Program-made: the position numbers and the translations under genes
Shown: piece after piece, positions 2,149 to 13,165 of the stretch
Position numbering within the stretch: position 1 is the stretch's first letter
How the letters are laid out: every line of letters starts with the position of its first letter
Origin: Candidatus Poribacteria bacterium
GTDB taxonomy: Bacteria > Poribacteria > DTPJ01 > WJIO01
NCBI GenBank assembly: GCA_014730235.1
Contig: WJIO01000217.1
Location: forward strand, 1 to 13,165
Direction: 5' to 3'
DNA: 13,165 nucleotides
Notes under the pieces: generated by a model
What the model saw: only the letters and a program-made list of their open reading frames with translations
Told to the model about the DNA's origin: nothing
The model's database searches: none

Positions 2149-3027
2149 ATGTTTAAACTAGCTGTAATAAGCGATGAAGTCTCTCAGGACTTCCAGACTG
2201 TGGCCGATTTAGCGGCGGAATACAAGCTCAATGGTATAGAAATAAGATCAGTATGGGATAAACCACCACAAGACTTAGACGAAAAAGATATGTCCAGGAT
2301 GAAAGAGATATTGGAAAAAGCTGGATTAGAAATAGCGGGAGTTGCTTCTCCCTTTTATAAATGCGATATAGATGATGCAGAAGCCCGTAAAGAACATATT
2401 GAGATACTAAAAAAATGTATAAAGTTGGCCAAGTTTTTCGGAACTAACATAGTCAGGGGTTTTGCGTTCTGGGATACAGGTAAAACAGAGGAATTATGGG
2501 ATACTATAAAGGAATATTACCAGGAGCCAGTTAAGATTATTGAATCAGAGGGCATTATACTGGGGTTGGAAAACGAATCGTCTACATCTCTGGCAACAGC
2601 CAAATTGACGGCTAAATTTATCCAGGAAATCGGATCACCAAACGTCAAGGCTATATGGGATCCAGCCAACGAAGCCCATGCAAAGGACGGAATAACGCCA
2701 TATCCAGATGCTTATAATGTGTTAAAACCTATGATGATCCATTGTCATGCCAAAGATGCCGCTCCAGGGCCCGATGGTAAGATGGAATCTGTGCCTGTAG
2801 GTGATGGAATTATTGACTGGAGTGGTCAGCTAAAGGAACTGCTGGACTCGGGTTATAAAGGCTACCTGTCACTGGAAACCCACTGGAGACCAAAGAAAGC
2901 CTTGAGTGAATCCCTGGTAAACGAACCGGGTGGATCAGCTTTCTCCGAAGCCGGTGAAGAGGCCAGCCGAATTTGCCTTGATAATATATTTGCCATGCTT
3001 AAGGAACACGACGTATCAATAGCTTAA
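2149..3027 (+). CDS. Sugar phosphate isomerase/epimerase (xylose-isomerase-like TIM barrel)
   Basis: A 292-residue protein of the AP-endonuclease-2/xylose-isomerase-like TIM-barrel superfamily, which interconverts or epimerises sugars or related polyols in the cytoplasm. The N-terminus (FKLAVISDEVSQDF) is the first strand. The four expected metal ligands can be placed: E141 in LGLENE, D171 in WDPANEAH, H198 and/or H200 in IHCHAKD, and E243 in LSLETHW. Length fits the family. The start is chosen because AGGAGAG (2137-2143) lies 5 nt before the ATG at 2149; the upstream GTG at 2077 has no such site and would precede the predicted -10. It stands alone on its strand, divergent from the DUF3352-like gene and convergent with the kinase gene, overlapping that gene's end by 12 bp. 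The family is clear; the substrate cannot be told from the sequence. Confidence 0.9.
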   Translation: MFKLAVISDEVSQDFQTVADLAAEYKLNGIEIRSVWDKPPQDLDEKDMSRMKEILEKAGLEIAGVASPFYKCDIDDAEARKEHIEILKKCIKLAKFFGTNIVRGFAFWDTGKTEELWDTIKEYYQEPVKIIESEGIILGLENESSTSLATAKLTAKFIQEIGSPNVKAIWDPANEAHAKDGITPYPDAYNVLKPMMIHCHAKDAAPGPDGKMESVPVGDGIIDWSGQLKELLDSGYKGYLSLETHWRPKKALSESLVNEPGGSAFSEAGEEASRICLDNIFAMLKEHDVSIA

Positions 3028-4032
3028 ATCCAGATCGTCCAGACGGAAGCTGCTGAACTGAATTGCTCTGGTGACTTCAGTGGCATCTTTACTGCCTCTC
3101 AAAGTCAGAATTTTACGGCAGAAATCTATATCTTCTATTAAAGCCAGACAAACAGGTTCGCCGCTTCTGTCTATTATGGCAACAAGCCGTTTTTTAAAAT
3201 ACCCCGGTGTATATGTGTATAATTCTTTCAGGCTGAAATATCCGCATAATTTTCGGAAGGACGCCTGGTTGACTTCATTTTCTGTAACGGCAAAAAGACT
3301 TTTTGAAGACCATTCCGCATATAAAACCTTGTGATCTATTACCTTTGATATGTTTTCCAGTTCTTTGTCGTTTGCCTCCCTGCCGTTCAGGAAACTGATT
3401 CTCTGACCGTTAATTTGTGAGAAACTAACTTCATATACTGCAAAATCTGAAAAATACTGGCAAAACTTTTCAATCCTGTATGAACATCTGCTTTCCCTAC
3501 TCTTCTTTTTTACCTCTCTGGCTGGACTAATTCTATATATATTACAGGTGGAATCTGTTTCATAACCTTTTATCAGCGTTTCAAGTTCACCATCTCTTTG
3601 AATACAGACGATATGATTGGGCCTTACAGCCTCAATTTTGCTGGATTTTAGAACCTTTCCTATCCGACCATCCACTAAACCTGTGGTATCAATTACTACT
3701 AAATCCACCTTTGCTTTTAACGCAGAATCCAGAACTTGCCTGACTCCGACAACTGTTTGGAGTAGATGTCTTTCAGGGGTAACGCTGCCTACAAAGTAGA
3801 ACGAATCAGGAAAAAGGATGGGTTTGGGATTTTCGCTATAGACTTTCATCGCTACAGTAGTCGGCGGGCCGATCCAGGATTGTCCTACATCAGAATCAAT
3901 AACCGCAACGTTTTTACCTTCTTTCAGAGCTTCAGAGGCTAGATGACGACAAAATGTTGATTTACCTGTATCCACGCGCCCTATAACTATAACGATTCCA
4001 CCCTCATTTATTATTTTAAAATTAGCTTTCAC
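3016..4032 (-). CDS. Clp1/Grc3-type polynucleotide 5'-hydroxyl kinase
   Basis: A 338-residue P-loop protein. Visible motifs: Walker A GRVDTGKS at 18-25; the Clp1-type DSDVGQSWIGPP at 46-57, equivalent to the D-x-D-x-G-Q...P segment of Clp1/NOL9/Grc3 kinases; VGSVTPERH at 81-89; Walker B-like LVVIDTTGLV at 111-120; and a lid/base-contact-like IVCIQRDGEL at 141-150. The C-terminal ~110 residues are beta-rich and end in an I-x-F-S-S-F-R-L strand, like the Clp1 C-terminal domain. The family phosphorylates 5'-OH ends of RNA or DNA, with roles in tRNA and rRNA processing in archaea and eukaryotes; bacterial members are little studied. The start is GTG at 4032, 11 bp inside the end of the EF-hand gene, implying translational coupling; an in-frame TGA lies just upstream and the next start candidate falls inside the P-loop. 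Family confidence is high; the substrate is inferred. Confidence 0.85.
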   Translation of the reverse strand: MKANFKIINEGGIVIVIGRVDTGKSTFCRHLASEALKEGKNVAVIDSDVGQSWIGPPTTVAMKVYSENPKPILFPDSFYFVGSVTPERHLLQTVVGVRQVLDSALKAKVDLVVIDTTGLVDGRIGKVLKSSKIEAVRPNHIVCIQRDGELETLIKGYETDSTCNIYRISPAREVKKKSRESRCSYRIEKFCQYFSDFAVYEVSFSQINGQRISFLNGREANDKELENISKVIDHKVLYAEWSSKSLFAVTENEVNQASFRKLCGYFSLKELYTYTPGYFKKRLVAIIDRSGEPVCLALIEDIDFCRKILTLRGSKDATEVTRAIQFSSFRLDDLDLSY

Positions 4033-7366: not shown

Positions 7367-7418
7367 ACGATTTAAATGGCATAATAACGGGTTAAACCCA
7401 TAACAGAAGGTGATCGCT

Positions 7419-8498
7419 ATGAATTCACGGGAAAGAATACTTACAGCATTGGATAAAAAACAGCCTGACAGAGTTCCCATATTTGAATTATACATAAACG
7501 AACCGAATATAGTGGATCTGGCCAGAACTATTGCGCCGGATGAGGTGAAAATACAGGCCGGCAGGGATAAATTCGGCAGTGAAAGTGTTGAAGTGATGGA
7601 CCTTTATTGCCTGCTTATAGAACGCTTGGATATTGACGCAACATGCACTAATTTTTCTATTGGTATAACGGACATAGGCGGAGAAAAGGGAAGGGATAAA
7701 TATGGAACTTACTACCTACTGAGCGAACATGGAGAGCCTACGCCGGTGGATGGACCTATCAAGAATATGGATGATCTTGATGGATTTGATATGATTTCAA
7801 AACTGGAAGAGAGTGATTTTTCTACAGTACAATATGTTATTGAAAAAGTCGGGAAGGAAAAAGCCCATTTCGTAAGTATTACAGACCCTTTTAAAGTAAG
7901 CTGGCGGCGGCGGGGTGGTATGCAAAACCTACTTATGGATTATATTCAAAATCCGGAAATGGCCCATAGACTTGCCTGTATTGCCACAGATTTTGACAAG
8001 GTTGCTGTTGATATGATCATAAAATCCGGCGCGGATGTGATAACCATGCCGGGAGACCTGGCCGGCGAGGACACTACCATAATGTCCCCAACCCACTTTC
8101 GGGAATACATAAAACCATATCACAAGGAAATAGTTGATTACGTCCATGACAAAGGACTGAAGATTATAAAGCACTCTGACGGCAACCTTTGGCCCATCCT
8201 GGACGACCTGGTTGAAGTTGGTTTTGATGGTCTGCATCCTATACAACCCCAGTGTATGGATATAGGGGAAGTAAAGGAATACCTGGCCGGTAAAGTCTGT
8301 ATTTTGGGCAATATTGACTGTCGGGATCTGCTGGTAAACGGAACTGTGGAAGAAGTGGAAGAAACAGTAAAGCAAACCATAGAAAAAGCCGCTCCCGGCG
8401 GCGGATATATAATAACTTCGTCCAATTCTATACACCCGGGGGTTAAGACTGAGAATTACCTGGCAATGGTGGAAGCTGTGCATAAGTATGGGCATTAA
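7419..8498 (+). CDS. Uroporphyrinogen decarboxylase-like protein (URO-D/corrinoid methyltransferase fold), first paralogue
   Basis: A 359-residue TIM-barrel protein. It opens NSRERILTALDKKQPDRVPI, the typical N-terminus of the URO-D-like MtaA/MtbA/CmuA group. The substrate-binding RQAGR motif of true heme uroporphyrinogen decarboxylase is absent, so heme synthesis is unlikely. The methyltransferase zinc motif H-x-C is replaced by H-S-D (252-254, KHSDGNLWPI), and the region where the family's third ligand Cys would fall reads ITSSNSIHPG. Other family landmarks are GADVITMPGDLAG (204-216) and CILGNIDCRDLL (294-305). It may be a methyltransferase variant or a different lyase. The start is ATG at 7419, with AGAAGG 8 nt upstream; the in-frame GTG at 7410 overlaps that site. 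It is the first gene of a two-gene operon, 39 bp before its paralogue. The family is certain; the reaction is open. Confidence 0.85.
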   Translation: MNSRERILTALDKKQPDRVPIFELYINEPNIVDLARTIAPDEVKIQAGRDKFGSESVEVMDLYCLLIERLDIDATCTNFSIGITDIGGEKGRDKYGTYYLLSEHGEPTPVDGPIKNMDDLDGFDMISKLEESDFSTVQYVIEKVGKEKAHFVSITDPFKVSWRRRGGMQNLLMDYIQNPEMAHRLACIATDFDKVAVDMIIKSGADVITMPGDLAGEDTTIMSPTHFREYIKPYHKEIVDYVHDKGLKIIKHSDGNLWPILDDLVEVGFDGLHPIQPQCMDIGEVKEYLAGKVCILGNIDCRDLLVNGTVEEVEETVKQTIEKAAPGGGYIITSSNSIHPGVKTENYLAMVEAVHKYGH

Positions 8499-8537
8499 AT
8501 AGAAACCGGGAAAAATAGATAAAAGGAATAATAAGCA

Positions 8538-9641
8538 ATGAATGTACCATTAGATAACCCAAAACCAGACATAGAAAATTTCAAGCAAATAATATTGAGA
8601 AAAAAAGAACCTGAAAGACCGCCCTTTGTGGAACTTCACATTGACAAGGAAATTGTTAAAGAAATTGTGGAATCAAAATTAGGCAGAAAGTGGGTTCCAC
8701 CTGTGCTTGATGACAGAGACTCTCAATCTGCGTGTCTTATGAATTATATCGAGTGCCATTATCGTCTTGGATACGATTTTATTCGGCTTACCGGGGATTT
8801 CAGGTTTTCCAGCGGTCTGCATTTTGTCAGTCATGTTCGGGAAGGTAAAGATACAGCCGATTTGACCAGGGGTGAAAGAAAATGGGTGGAGTTAAGCGCT
8901 GGTGTTATAAACTCGTGGGAGGATTTTGAAAAATATCCCTGGCCTTCACTGGATGAAGTTGATATGTGGGCTATGGACTTTGTTTCAAGTAATCTGCCTG
9001 ATGGTATGGGTATTCTAGCATGTCCTACCCAGGGCGTTTTTGAAACGGGGATGAACAGCCTATTTGGATATGAAAATTTGGCCTTTCTTCTGTATGATGA
9101 TCCTGAACTGGTAAAAGCGGTATTCGACAGAGTAGGTGAACTGATATATAGCTACTATCAGAACATTATTGGTATGGATAACCTAGCTGGATTCTTCCAG
9201 GGTGAGGATATGGGCTTCAGAACCAGCACCCTTATTGCCCCTGAATATCTGAGGAAATTTGTTTTTCCATGGCATAAGAAAATTGCGAAATTGGCCCATG
9301 AGAACGATCTGATCTACATTCTTCATGCCTGCGGCAATCTGGAATCCATAATGGAAGATTTGATCGAAGACGTTGGTATTGATGCAAAGCATTCCTTTGA
9401 GGATGCCATAATGCCTGTTACAGAATTTAAGAGAATATATGGTGACAGAGTAGGTATTATGGGCGGTGTAGATGTAGATAACCTTTGTAGAATGGAAGAA
9501 AAAGATTTGAGGGCTTATGTGAAAAATATTATTGATGAATGCAATAAAGGCGGCGGATATGCCCTGGGAACCGGAAATTCAGTTACTAATTATGTTCCAT
9601 TAAAGAATTTTCTCATAATGTTAGATGAAGGTTTAAGATAA
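8538..9641 (+). CDS. Uroporphyrinogen decarboxylase-like protein, second paralogue
   Basis: A 367-residue TIM-barrel protein of the same superfamily as the preceding gene but strongly diverged; almost no long identical stretch is shared. Landmarks: ERPPFVELHIDKE near the N-terminus, GFFQGEDMGFRTSTLIAPEYLRKFVFP (about 218-244), ILHACGN (261-267, H263-x-C265, the zinc-motif form), and GIMGGVDVDNL (316-326). The last segment, YALGTGNSVTNYVP, has no cysteine where MtaA/MtbA-type enzymes carry the third zinc ligand. A true heme enzyme is unlikely because the RQAGR motif is missing. The ATG at 8538 has AAAGGA about 11 nt upstream. It follows the first paralogue by 39 bp without a promoter or terminator, so co-transcription and possibly a joint reaction or heterodimer are inferred. 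The substrate is unknown; no corrinoid protein is encoded in the window. Confidence 0.85.
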   Translation: MNVPLDNPKPDIENFKQIILRKKEPERPPFVELHIDKEIVKEIVESKLGRKWVPPVLDDRDSQSACLMNYIECHYRLGYDFIRLTGDFRFSSGLHFVSHVREGKDTADLTRGERKWVELSAGVINSWEDFEKYPWPSLDEVDMWAMDFVSSNLPDGMGILACPTQGVFETGMNSLFGYENLAFLLYDDPELVKAVFDRVGELIYSYYQNIIGMDNLAGFFQGEDMGFRTSTLIAPEYLRKFVFPWHKKIAKLAHENDLIYILHACGNLESIMEDLIEDVGIDAKHSFEDAIMPVTEFKRIYGDRVGIMGGVDVDNLCRMEEKDLRAYVKNIIDECNKGGGYALGTGNSVTNYVPLKNFLIMLDEGLR

Positions 9642-9890: not shown

Positions 9891-9941
9891 GCTACAGCTT
9901 CGTGGTTGTCCCCCAAGCAACCACGAAGCTGTAGCAGTTTT
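9891..9941 (+). terminator. Strong hairpin, probable transcription terminator at the convergent junction
   Basis: GCTACAGCTTCGTGGTTG (9891-9908) and its exact complement (9918-9935) form an 18-bp perfect stem with a 9-nt loop, TCCCCCAAG. On the plus strand it is followed after AG by TTTT (9938-9941), consistent with a terminator for the URO-D operon, although it lies 250 bp past that operon's last stop. On the minus strand, just downstream of the GHMP kinase gene (15 bp past its stop), the T-run is lacking. It could stop transcription from both sides imperfectly, or be a dispersed palindromic repeat. Confidence 0.55.
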
Positions 9942-9950
9942 AAAACATAT

Positions 9951-11888
9951 TTAAAGCATGCAGGCCCTTTCTACCGGAATGTTTACAGCTAATCCTTCAA
10001 AGTAATAATCGGCAGGGATAAATAATAGCTCTCTATCTATTTTTTTATCTTTAAAGAGTGCGTTTACTTTTCTTTGTACAGCTTCCAGATATTCTGCTTC
10101 AGCCTTGTTTACTGGTTCTTTTTTCCTGCGCTTTTTTTTCACAATATCAGCCAAACGGCTTCGCATTTGTTCCAAATCGTTTTTGTCTTCTATAGCTTTT
10201 TCAAGACCATTATCATATTTTAACCAATCCAACTCTTTTGCTTCGTTGGGCTCATAATAATTTTCAATAAGCGCGTTTTTCAACCGTGATAGGCATTCAT
10301 CATTTTTCTCAGCCATTACCAATACATTACCACCGAATCCTGCCCCTGTCAGGGATGCACCGATAACGCCTTCTGTGCGTCTGGCTATTTCTACAATGGT
10401 GTCCAGTTCCAGACTGCTGGCGTCGTAATCGCCCGGTTGTCTTGCCAACTGGGATTTTTTTATAAGTTCTTCGTCGCTACTGTTTATATTCGCGATCAGG
10501 TTTTCCAGATAAGGATTTGTAACCTTATTCTGAGTAAACTGCTCATAGCTCTGTAAGTCCTGGCCAAATTTAAACAACCGGTCGCCATCATGACCAATAA
10601 ACATTAATTCACCGGCTTCCTTTATCCTGCCTTCTTTTATCAACCGACCAAACTCGCGACTTCGCTCGGATTCGGCAATTCCCCATAACGTCGCGCCCCG
10701 GACTTCCACCGAATCGGGAAAGCGTTTCAACTGACCGAAGAACCTGTCCAGACGGGAATCTATCTCAGCATCGGAGTAACGGCTTCGCAGTTCTTTAATG
10801 CTTATCTGCTCAGGTAAAGCCAGCAGCATCTCATAAATTTTTTGCAGACCGAATTCCTGAGGTGTTATCTGTCCCAGGTATTCCAGCTTTTCTATAGTAT
10901 TACTGCCGATACCCTCCATTCCTGCCAGAACATCTTTTATGAGGGTAGTGGCCATGCTGTAGGCAAACATGGTCTGATTGTATGCAAATAAGCGTTCATC
11001 AGATTTGGAAGATGTTTTATAGGATTTAACAATAATAACCTGGTAGTCATCTGGTAGAGGTATATACTCAGGCTGCATTTCCTCCACAGTCAAAAATACG
11101 CTGTGGATAATGCTTCCCTGTTTTCCAAACAGTATAGCCCCGTGATCACCAAATCCGCCGCGGGTTCCAACATACCATTCACCGCGACCTAGTTCCACAG
11201 TAAATTCCCGGCGATCCATTTCCAGGTTGTTGACAGCCATAAAAGCTAAAGCCGATGATACCACCACTGCTGATGAGGAGGCCATACCGCTTCCCCTGGG
11301 TGCATCCCCATAAGTAACAACATCCATCCCCTTAAGGGCTTTATCGGGGAAACTGTCCTGAATCTTCAAAACTGAAGCTTTTACATAGTTCGCCCAGTCT
11401 CCCCTGGCTGTTTCTATGGATTTCCTCACATATTCGCTATCTATGTATTTTGTCCATTCACCCCAACTATCCTGTTTTGTCTCCCGGGATATGGTAAATT
11501 CCCGGGGGCCAAAACGTTCGTTATCCACATTATTCAGCACCACCTTATCATTATCTCGTCGTCCTACAACCATGACGATCTCCCGTCCATGAGTCAGGTA
11601 GTTTGGAGTAGCGTGCTGCATTTCCGAATGCATACCCCGCAGGTTTATCCTGCCCGGTGCTCTGGTAATGGTTACATCTTTATCTGGGCCGTATACCTGA
11701 GCAAAATGCTCTAAAGCTCTTATAATCAGACTTCTGCGTGTATCAATAAAATCTTTGTTGTTGCCGTAAAGTTCCACAAGGCGTTTTGAAAAATCCTGGT
11801 CTGGATTATTAAAAAGCCTCAACCATTCGTTAATATTTCTGAAATCCACTTTCTGGGGAACAAAATCTAAAGCCGCTGGCCCTGGCAT
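9951..11888 (-). CDS. Large galactokinase-family GHMP sugar kinase with atypical substrate motif
   Basis: A 645-residue GHMP kinase, far longer than the usual ~390 of galactokinase. Motifs (numbered from ATG at 11888): APGRINL at 77-83; PRGSGMASSSA at 197-207 (phosphate-binding loop); the catalytic-base region GGFGDHGA with D248; and GASLTGAGFGG at 510-520. Galactokinases read GRVNLIGEHxDY, where E, H and D contact the sugar; here the equivalent is GRINLRGMHSEM, so the Glu is Met and the Asp is Glu. There is an extended region between motifs 2 and 3 and a charged C-terminal tail of ~100 residues (about 546-645, rich in K/E, including KKKRRKKE). The start is ATG at 11888 because AGGAGG lies 5 nt upstream; the frame stays open to an ATG at 11939 and a TTG at 11963 that overlaps the GH2 stop. 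It is coupled to the GH2 gene upstream. Kinase family is secure; galactose as substrate is doubtful. Confidence 0.8.
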   Translation of the reverse strand: MPGPAALDFVPQKVDFRNINEWLRLFNNPDQDFSKRLVELYGNNKDFIDTRRSLIIRALEHFAQVYGPDKDVTITRAPGRINLRGMHSEMQHATPNYLTHGREIVMVVGRRDNDKVVLNNVDNERFGPREFTISRETKQDSWGEWTKYIDSEYVRKSIETARGDWANYVKASVLKIQDSFPDKALKGMDVVTYGDAPRGSGMASSSAVVVSSALAFMAVNNLEMDRREFTVELGRGEWYVGTRGGFGDHGAILFGKQGSIIHSVFLTVEEMQPEYIPLPDDYQVIIVKSYKTSSKSDERLFAYNQTMFAYSMATTLIKDVLAGMEGIGSNTIEKLEYLGQITPQEFGLQKIYEMLLALPEQISIKELRSRYSDAEIDSRLDRFFGQLKRFPDSVEVRGATLWGIAESERSREFGRLIKEGRIKEAGELMFIGHDGDRLFKFGQDLQSYEQFTQNKVTNPYLENLIANINSSDEELIKKSQLARQPGDYDASSLELDTIVEIARRTEGVIGASLTGAGFGGNVLVMAEKNDECLSRLKNALIENYYEPNEAKELDWLKYDNGLEKAIEDKNDLEQMRSRLADIVKKKRRKKEPVNKAEAEYLEAVQRKVNALFKDKKIDRELLFIPADYYFEGLAVNIPVERACML

Positions 11889-11893
11889 TACTT

Positions 11894-11899
11894 CCTCCT
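11894..11899 (-). promoter_or_regulatory. Strong Shine-Dalgarno sequence deciding the GHMP kinase start
   Basis: AGGAGG on the minus strand (11899-11894) lies 5 nt before ATG at 11888. The alternative starts at 11939 (ATG) and 11963 (TTG, overlapping the GH2 stop by 11 bp) have no clear site. The same bases would encode Q-E-E-V in a longer product, so chance cannot be excluded. Confidence 0.5.
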
Positions 11900-11952
11900 G
11901 GAAAAACATGGGAGTGTATTTATTATCTTCCCATGTCATGATATATTTATTA

Positions 11953-13165
11953 TTATTCTTCAATCGCCGCTTTTTGAGTATTTATTTCCTTTATTTTGTC
12001 GGGATCGAACTTGGGTTTGCGGTCGTAATAATACAATCCGTTGACTTCCTGTTCGATATCATACAACTGAGTGTAGCAGAAAGCGCACATTTTAGGATGA
12101 TTAAGCAGTACCTCCGTTAGCTTTCTATAGCGCTCGAAAAATTCCTCCTCGTTTTTAGGTCGGCCATCTACACCACCATAACCCCAACCTTTATCATCCT
12201 GCTGTCCGGGATTCCACCATATACCTCCGTATTCACTCACCCAGTAGGGCTGGCCCTGATATGGTACGTCATGTTCCGGGTTATTGCGTCGAGCTTTGCC
12301 GCCTTCGGCCAGGGGGCGATAGCGTTCTGCAAAGGTATCCGGGTTCTGGTCATAGTCGTGGACATCGTAAAGATCAGTTTCCACATGCACATAACCGCTG
12401 GTGTCAACAACCGGTCGGGTGTGATCAAAGGCTTTGGTAACCCTGTAAACTCGCCTTAAAAGCTCAGAATCCTGGCTTCTTGGCGTTTCGTTGAATGGAC
12501 ACCAGCCAACAATAGATGGATGGCTGTAATCCCTTTCCAGCACTTCCATCCACTCTTTGAGATAGCGTCTCAGGGTTTCTGCTGACGCATGGTCTACCCC
12601 CCAGTTGGGATATTCATCCCATATAAGGTAGCCAAGTTTATCGGCCCAATAAAGGAATCTGGGTTCAAAAACCTTTTCATGCAGACGCGCTCCGTTAAAG
12701 CCTAAACCCATTGATATTTCGATGTCATTTTTCAGGGCTTCGTCTGACGGGGCGGTGTATATTCCATCGGGGTAGAATCCCTGATCCAGAACCAATCTTT
12801 GGAACACAGGCTTATCATTGAGCAGGACAGCAGGCGGAACGACCTTTATAGAGCGCATGCCAAAGTAGCTGTCAACCTGATCCACTGCCTCTCCCTGTGA
12901 TACCAAGGTCAGTTTAAGGTCGTAGAGGAATGGGTCTTCCGGTGACCATGAACGAATTTCTGAAAGTTTAATGGCAGTCTTAGTTGACACGCCATAACAA
13001 ACAGCTTCTGCCTGACCGACTGAAGTGCCGTCTATCATGGCGTTGGCTTTAACAACCATACCTTTGCTGTCGCCGTTGATTTTTGCTTCTATGAAAAGCT
13101 GACCACTGTCCAGATCCGGTGTGAGTTTTACATTTTCTATGTAAGTTTTTGGAACGGCTTCCATC
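11953..13165 (-). CDS. Glycoside hydrolase family 2 (beta-galactosidase/beta-glucuronidase-like), 5' end outside the window
   Basis: The C-terminal 403 residues (plus one base) of a GH2 enzyme; the frame is open at the right edge and the Met at 13164 is internal, since the ~180-residue N-terminal sugar-binding domain is missing. Residues ~1-110 are the Ig-like sandwich domain (WSPEDPFLYDLKLTL; FGMRSIKV). The TIM barrel follows from about 115: NDKPVFQRLVLDQGFYPDG, NGARLHEKVFEPRFLYWADKLGYLIWDE, then the acid/base N225-E226 in WCPFNETPRS and the nucleophile E311 in YWVSEYGG, 85 residues apart. Both are intact, so the enzyme should be active, releasing a non-reducing-end beta-linked sugar. It ends with MCAFCYTQLYDIEQEVNGLY, typical of the family. 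The GHMP kinase follows directly, suggesting the released sugar is phosphorylated. Export cannot be judged without the N-terminus. Glycosidic specificity is not readable here. Confidence 0.92.
   Translation of the reverse strand, partial: MEAVPKTYIENVKLTPDLDSGQLFIEAKINGDSKGMVVKANAMIDGTSVGQAEAVCYGVSTKTAIKLSEIRSWSPEDPFLYDLKLTLVSQGEAVDQVDSYFGMRSIKVVPPAVLLNDKPVFQRLVLDQGFYPDGIYTAPSDEALKNDIEISMGLGFNGARLHEKVFEPRFLYWADKLGYLIWDEYPNWGVDHASAETLRRYLKEWMEVLERDYSHPSIVGWCPFNETPRSQDSELLRRVYRVTKAFDHTRPVVDTSGYVHVETDLYDVHDYDQNPDTFAERYRPLAEGGKARRNNPEHDVPYQGQPYWVSEYGGIWWNPGQQDDKGWGYGGVDGRPKNEEEFFERYRKLTEVLLNHPKMCAFCYTQLYDIEQEVNGLYYYDRKPKFDPDKIKEINTQKAAIEE

Follow-up and report, generated by a model that had tools for sequence, protein, structure and literature searches.

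A galactokinase-like GHMP kinase with an altered signature, encoded next to a furanosidase-like GH2 gene in a Poribacteria-related genome

Does a galactokinase-like protein that departs from the galactokinase signature still phosphorylate galactose, or does it act on another sugar released by the glycoside hydrolase encoded next to it? This question is raised by the window analysed here, a stretch of 13,165 nucleotides that makes up one entire contig of a Poribacteria-related genome. The features of the locus are as follows.

9951..11888, minus strand: gene for the 645-aa GHMP sugar kinase, including its stop codon (ORF, Pfam, alignment, model)
11894..11899, minus strand: Shine-Dalgarno-like AGGAGG of the kinase gene (read from the sequence)
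11622..11636, minus strand: codons of G85-M86-H87-S88-E89, the altered galactokinase signature (alignment, motif extraction)
11271..11294, minus strand: codons of the ATP loop GSGMASSS, residues 199-206 (sequence, alignment)
11145..11147, minus strand: codon of the catalytic Asp248 (invariant in a 50-row alignment)
10329..10349, minus strand: codons of TGAGFGG, residues 514-520 (sequence, 50-row alignment)
9996..10232, minus strand: 79-residue lineage-specific insertion, residues 553-631, predicted to be helical (alignment, AlphaFold2 model)
11953..13164, minus strand: GH2 group III (GH2_18/19-like) furanosidase gene, truncated at its 5' end and probably the kinase's partner (Pfam, PDB sequence matches, gene order)

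The kinase ORF spans 9951-11963 (minus strand), 670 codons when counted from the first TTG. Since AGGAGG is located 5 nt upstream of the ATG at 11888, forming a strong ribosome-binding site, translation likely starts at this ATG to give a product of 645 aa, and the residue numbers used below follow this form. A perfect inverted repeat of at least 15 bp (ACAGCTTCGTGGTTG...CAACCACGAAGCTGT, 9894-9932) separates the kinase gene from a URO-D gene that converges on it. It forms a hairpin that is probably a two-way terminator; it occurs once in the genome, which ruled out a repeat family. Elsewhere in the window are two adjacent URO-D/MtaA-like methyltransferase genes (7410-9641, plus strand) that score below all NCBIfam MtaA cut-offs, and a gene for a CLP1_P-type (polynucleotide 5'-kinase-like) P-loop protein (3016-4032, minus strand; 129.9 bits). 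The latter adjoins a gene for a 729-aa protein having no Pfam match and containing EF-hand-like DADGNN and DYNGDG stretches.

An earlier note on this DNA, which placed the gene at the same 9951-11888, had claimed that the signature is altered to M-H-S-E and that the ATP loop, D248 and the TGAGFGG motif are kept, and the alignment bore out both points. Residues 85-89 read G-M-H-S-E where galactokinase has G-E-H-T-D; Met86 and Glu89 correspond to Glu43 and Asp46 of galactokinase in human numbering. R80, H87, E237, D248, K295 and Y303 are present, as are the ATP loop (199-206) and TGAGFGG (514-520). The protein passed the Pfam cut-offs for GHMP_kinases_N (44 bits against 22.3) and GHMP_kinases_C (36 bits against 21), while the galactose-binding signature PF10509 scored 22.6 bits, just below its cut-off of 23.1. 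TIGR00131, the NCBIfam galactokinase model, gave 118.6 bits against a cut-off of 226.65, and the PRK models scored still lower. The substrate loop is rebuilt over ca. 15 residues; the stretch following the signature, MHSEMQHATPNYLTH, is peculiar to this protein and one close relative, and these two alone carry Thr at position 306, which is Arg or Lys in almost every other sequence sampled. Because the catalytic residues, invariant across the alignment, are retained along with the ATP loop and TGAGFGG, an active kinase is expected, and we consider it very likely that the protein is an active sugar kinase.

The extra residues that had been described as a C-terminal extension of about 100 residues do exist, but an alignment with 48 relatives placed them inside the protein, as a 79-residue insertion (553-631) ahead of the conserved last strand of the family. 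This insertion was found only in the kinase and in a relative of 57% identity, and its conservation there argues against an assembly artefact. No evidence supports the suggestion that it bears on substrate choice. An AlphaFold2 model built from a 49-row alignment, from which the E. coli row was left out, had a mean pLDDT of 92 and represented the insertion as helices. The model has the GALK1/GALK2 fold, with Z values of ca. 36 to both and an rmsd of 2.1-2.6 over 376-434 residues. GALK2 (PDB 2a2c/2a2d) is, together with GALK1, the closest whole-length structural match and also matches the N-terminal helices (Z 36.1); however, it is only 22% identical to the kinase and retains a GEHIDY signature. 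When the matches were ordered by Foldseek E-value, the yeast protein Gal3p came first. This order, together with a lineage-specific helical insertion that could bind a partner, would suit a kinase-like sugar sensor rather than an enzyme. However, every catalytic residue is kept, VIA-align placed Gal3p below the true kinases with GALK2 sharing first place, and no regulator gene lies beside the kinase gene; a sensor function is thus very improbable.

Relatives were sought with an alignment as the query, a scan with the single protein having returned nothing, and the wider search yielded 65 loci. The closest relative, 57% identical, is encoded by another Poribacteria genome (Candidatus Poribacteria SpSt-970, DTPJ01000497; G001) and shares the motif, the insertion and the upstream GH2 gene. 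Motif extraction separated the canonical EHTDY group from RH[IV][DE]H[RQ]GG, MHIDH[QR]GG, VH/TH[IV][DE]HRGG and MHSEMQ, the last comprising the kinase and this relative; among the 84 genomes searched in the phylum, MHSEMQ occurred only in these two (G000 and G001). Trees were constructed with FastTree and, from 49 rows, under a mixture model. In the latter, the 32 rows in which Arg, Met, Val or Thr replaces the signature Glu formed one clade (hereafter the Glu-less clade; SH-aLRT 99), which extends across many phyla in the sampled sequences, and each motif group except EHTDYS occupied one side of a branch. FastTree placed the kinase pair beside the Arg-type clade (support 0.974); the mixture-model tree placed it inside the Glu-less clade with no sister resolved. 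Forcing the pair together with six canonical galactokinases cost 109 log-likelihood units (p-AU 0.0002). This rejection, with the low TIGR00131 score, agrees with the expectation that the protein is not a canonical galactokinase, and on sequence grounds we are highly confident that it lies outside that group; its identity as a kinase and its membership of the Glu-less clade are well supported. The altered signature is, in turn, a clade trait. It had been presented as special to this protein, but Met replaces Glu in all sampled MHIDH[QR]GG relatives, and the Asp-to-Glu change recurs in other clade members (HIEHRGG). As a separate observation, three further Poribacteria proteins (L012, L113 and L114) form a branch of their own with an intact EHIDY signature; in at least one of them, L012, the reading frame continues into a C-terminal half resembling an NTP transferase.

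The gene upstream of the kinase gene encodes a GH2 protein whose 5' part is absent as the contig ends. Its best PDB sequence matches were 7xyr (8e-91), 7sf2 and the Streptomyces galactofuranosidase 9j6n/9j6m (1e-46 for 9j6n). 7XYR and 9J6M belong to GH2 group III, which has arabinofuranosidase and galactofuranosidase activities, and GH2_19 proteins are mostly unsecreted (PMC12243196). The window GH2 contains FNETP and VSEYGG, corresponding to the catalytic NE and the nucleophile Glu, and retains the acid/base Glu of FNETP that is lost in 7XYR itself. By sequence it thus matches the group III furanosidases (alpha-L-arabinofuranosidase/beta-D-galactofuranosidase). The supposed link between the kinase and this enzyme held up in the second genome, where a GH2 gene whose product is 78% identical lies directly upstream of the relative's kinase gene (same gene order in L029/L010). 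The kinase probably acts on the GH2 product: GH2 would cleave furanosides, and the kinase would then transfer an ATP phosphate to C1 of the small sugar set free, making its 1-phosphate.

Which sugar this would be can be considered in the light of the host genome, which contains a GalE-GalT fusion, and canonical-type galactokinase pieces at the ends of two contigs (C428 and C184). Based on these genes, galactose seems to be served elsewhere in the genome. The non-canonical phylogeny, the sub-cut-off TIGR00131 score and the conserved GH2 gene, together with the separate GalE-GalT fusion and galactokinase pieces, make it plausible that the kinase uses a sugar other than ordinary galactose. An FKP-like gene (L007) and a weak AraA-like match are also present; owing to the latter, the proposal that the host lacks an arabinose isomerase was dropped. 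PF01704 (UDP-sugar pyrophosphorylase) gave no match in the host genome, and its control gave no match anywhere either.

The signature Glu of galactokinase probably contacts O6; none of the papers searched names the atom contacted. If this contact holds, loss of the Glu suits a sugar without a C6 hydroxyl group, such as L-arabinose, which is galactose without the C6 hydroxymethyl group and for which the signature Glu would not be needed. In FKP, Asp601 bonds O3 and O4, and Trp599 packs on C4-C5-C6 (PMC11982464); as read from the motifs, these residues are equivalent to E89 and H87 of the kinase, respectively. The C6-hydroxyl argument is soft, since GalK accepts 6-deoxy-6-fluorogalactose (PMC3898844), so that Glu loss need not change the substrate and, taken alone, does not rule galactose out. 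The kinase could still be a galactokinase if GH2 frees galactofuranose that opens and recloses as galactose, which is then phosphorylated despite the signature. That group III includes beta-D-galactofuranosidases, that the nearest fold is GALK1/GALK2, that R80, H87, E237, D248 and Y303 are retained and that GalK tolerates 6-substituted galactose all fit this explanation; the position outside the canonical galactokinases, the rebuilt substrate loop and the galactose genes elsewhere in the genome speak against it, and we regard it as unlikely. We favour a C1 sugar kinase of the Glu-less clade and a group III GH2 acting in sequence, with L-arabinose as the most likely substrate and D-galactose as the main alternative, though we give this combined reading slightly less than an even chance; all of it, from the activity and its C1 regiochemistry to the two-step route and the substrate, is inferred. 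L-arabinose is somewhat more likely than galactose, and its assignment in particular is tentative.

The neighbourhoods of other clade members bear on both the arabinose proposal and a further alternative. GH51 (L041, L045) or GH127 (L043, L044, L046) genes lie near Arg-type members. Of 21 loci, 5 had such a gene within 6 kb, whereas genome counts predicted 0.32; with close relatives merged, 3 were observed against 0.25 expected (P ca. 0.002, in a test chosen after the pattern was seen). These genes adjoin three clade lineages other than the kinase's own. Most Arg-type members carry a fused N-terminal NTP_transf_3 domain that is closest to GlmU and is encoded adjacently instead in three Clostridia; no such domain was seen in the Met, Val, Thr or MHSEMQ members sampled. 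Arg-type genes are also found next to GalE (Clostridia), a UDP-sugar dehydrogenase and a hexapeptide protein (L035), polysaccharide genes (L063) or a glucuronyl-esterase-like gene, and polysaccharide or amino-sugar genes (UDP-sugar dehydrogenase, GalE, flippase) lie beside other clade members. Because of these neighbours and the GlmU-like fused domain, N-acetylhexosamines or uronates are possible substrates of the clade. Extended to the window, this would make the kinase an N-acetylhexosamine or uronate kinase with GH2 serving a related polysaccharide. GALK2, a GalNAc kinase, is the best PDB sequence match of two relatives (P0003 and P0006) and joint first by structure for the kinase itself, and the signature of plant galacturonokinase is GAHIDHQGG. 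On the other hand, the window kinase, having Met86, is not of the Arg type and has no nucleotidyltransferase partner within the window, and its conserved neighbour is a furanosidase, neither a hexosaminidase nor a glucuronidase. We consider this alternative quite unlikely.

Compared with known systems, the kinase resembles GalK/GALK1 (TIGR00131) in fold, ATP loop, catalytic Arg/Glu/Asp and C-terminal glycine motif, and differs in the loop after the signature, the 79-residue insertion and its separate clade. The Arg-type members fused to NTP_transf_3 (e.g. L043 and L045), for which no named family was found, share its clade at 31-36% identity, whereas their Arg and their GlmU-like domain are both missing from the kinase. 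L-fucokinase/FKP (PDB 9iip) is likewise a GHMP sugar-1-kinase without the signature Glu, but is distant (Z 22), has a GGWSD motif and carries a fused GDP-fucose pyrophosphorylase. Plant-type L-arabinokinase, whose signature is GGIADY, shares the substrate proposed for the kinase; the motif differs, and the GGIADY-type Poribacteria proteins fall on another, distant branch according to motifs and tree. The fold is thus ordinary, and the Glu-less clade is uncharacterised. Pfam or NCBIfam matches are likely to label its members galactokinases, and if their sugar pocket differs, sugar salvage would be mis-annotated in Planctomycetota, Verrucomicrobiota, Latescibacterota, Poribacteria and rumen Clostridia. 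On the broadest reading, which is doubtful, the clade would be a widespread, undescribed bacterial sugar-1-kinase family, mostly fused to a UDP-sugar pyrophosphorylase, that directly activates free L-arabinose or some other sugar that is not galactose, as a counterpart of plant UDP-arabinose salvage; the window enzyme would then be an unfused form that has a cytosolic furanosidase as its partner.

Several other arrangements were observed in the clade. In rumen Clostridia (L048, L053, L049 and L036), the kinase, a GlmU-like nucleotidyltransferase and a GalE-type epimerase occur together, the nucleotidyltransferase being fused to the kinase in L036 and encoded by a separate gene in the others. 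In Latescibacterota, the Val-type kinase gene directly follows one for a conserved protein of at most 380 aa that has no Pfam match and looks ATP-grasp-like by eye (3 of 3 loci; L037, L039 and L040). Directly downstream of the kinase gene in L047 lies a gene (10805-15589) whose 1595-aa product has HNH_4 and RuvC_III domains (Cas9-like). Besides, the Met-type (MHIDHQGG) kinase genes of two sponge-type Poribacteria (L089:7537-8871 and L068:1708-3042) directly follow a sulfatase gene, hinting at a different substrate source for this subgroup.
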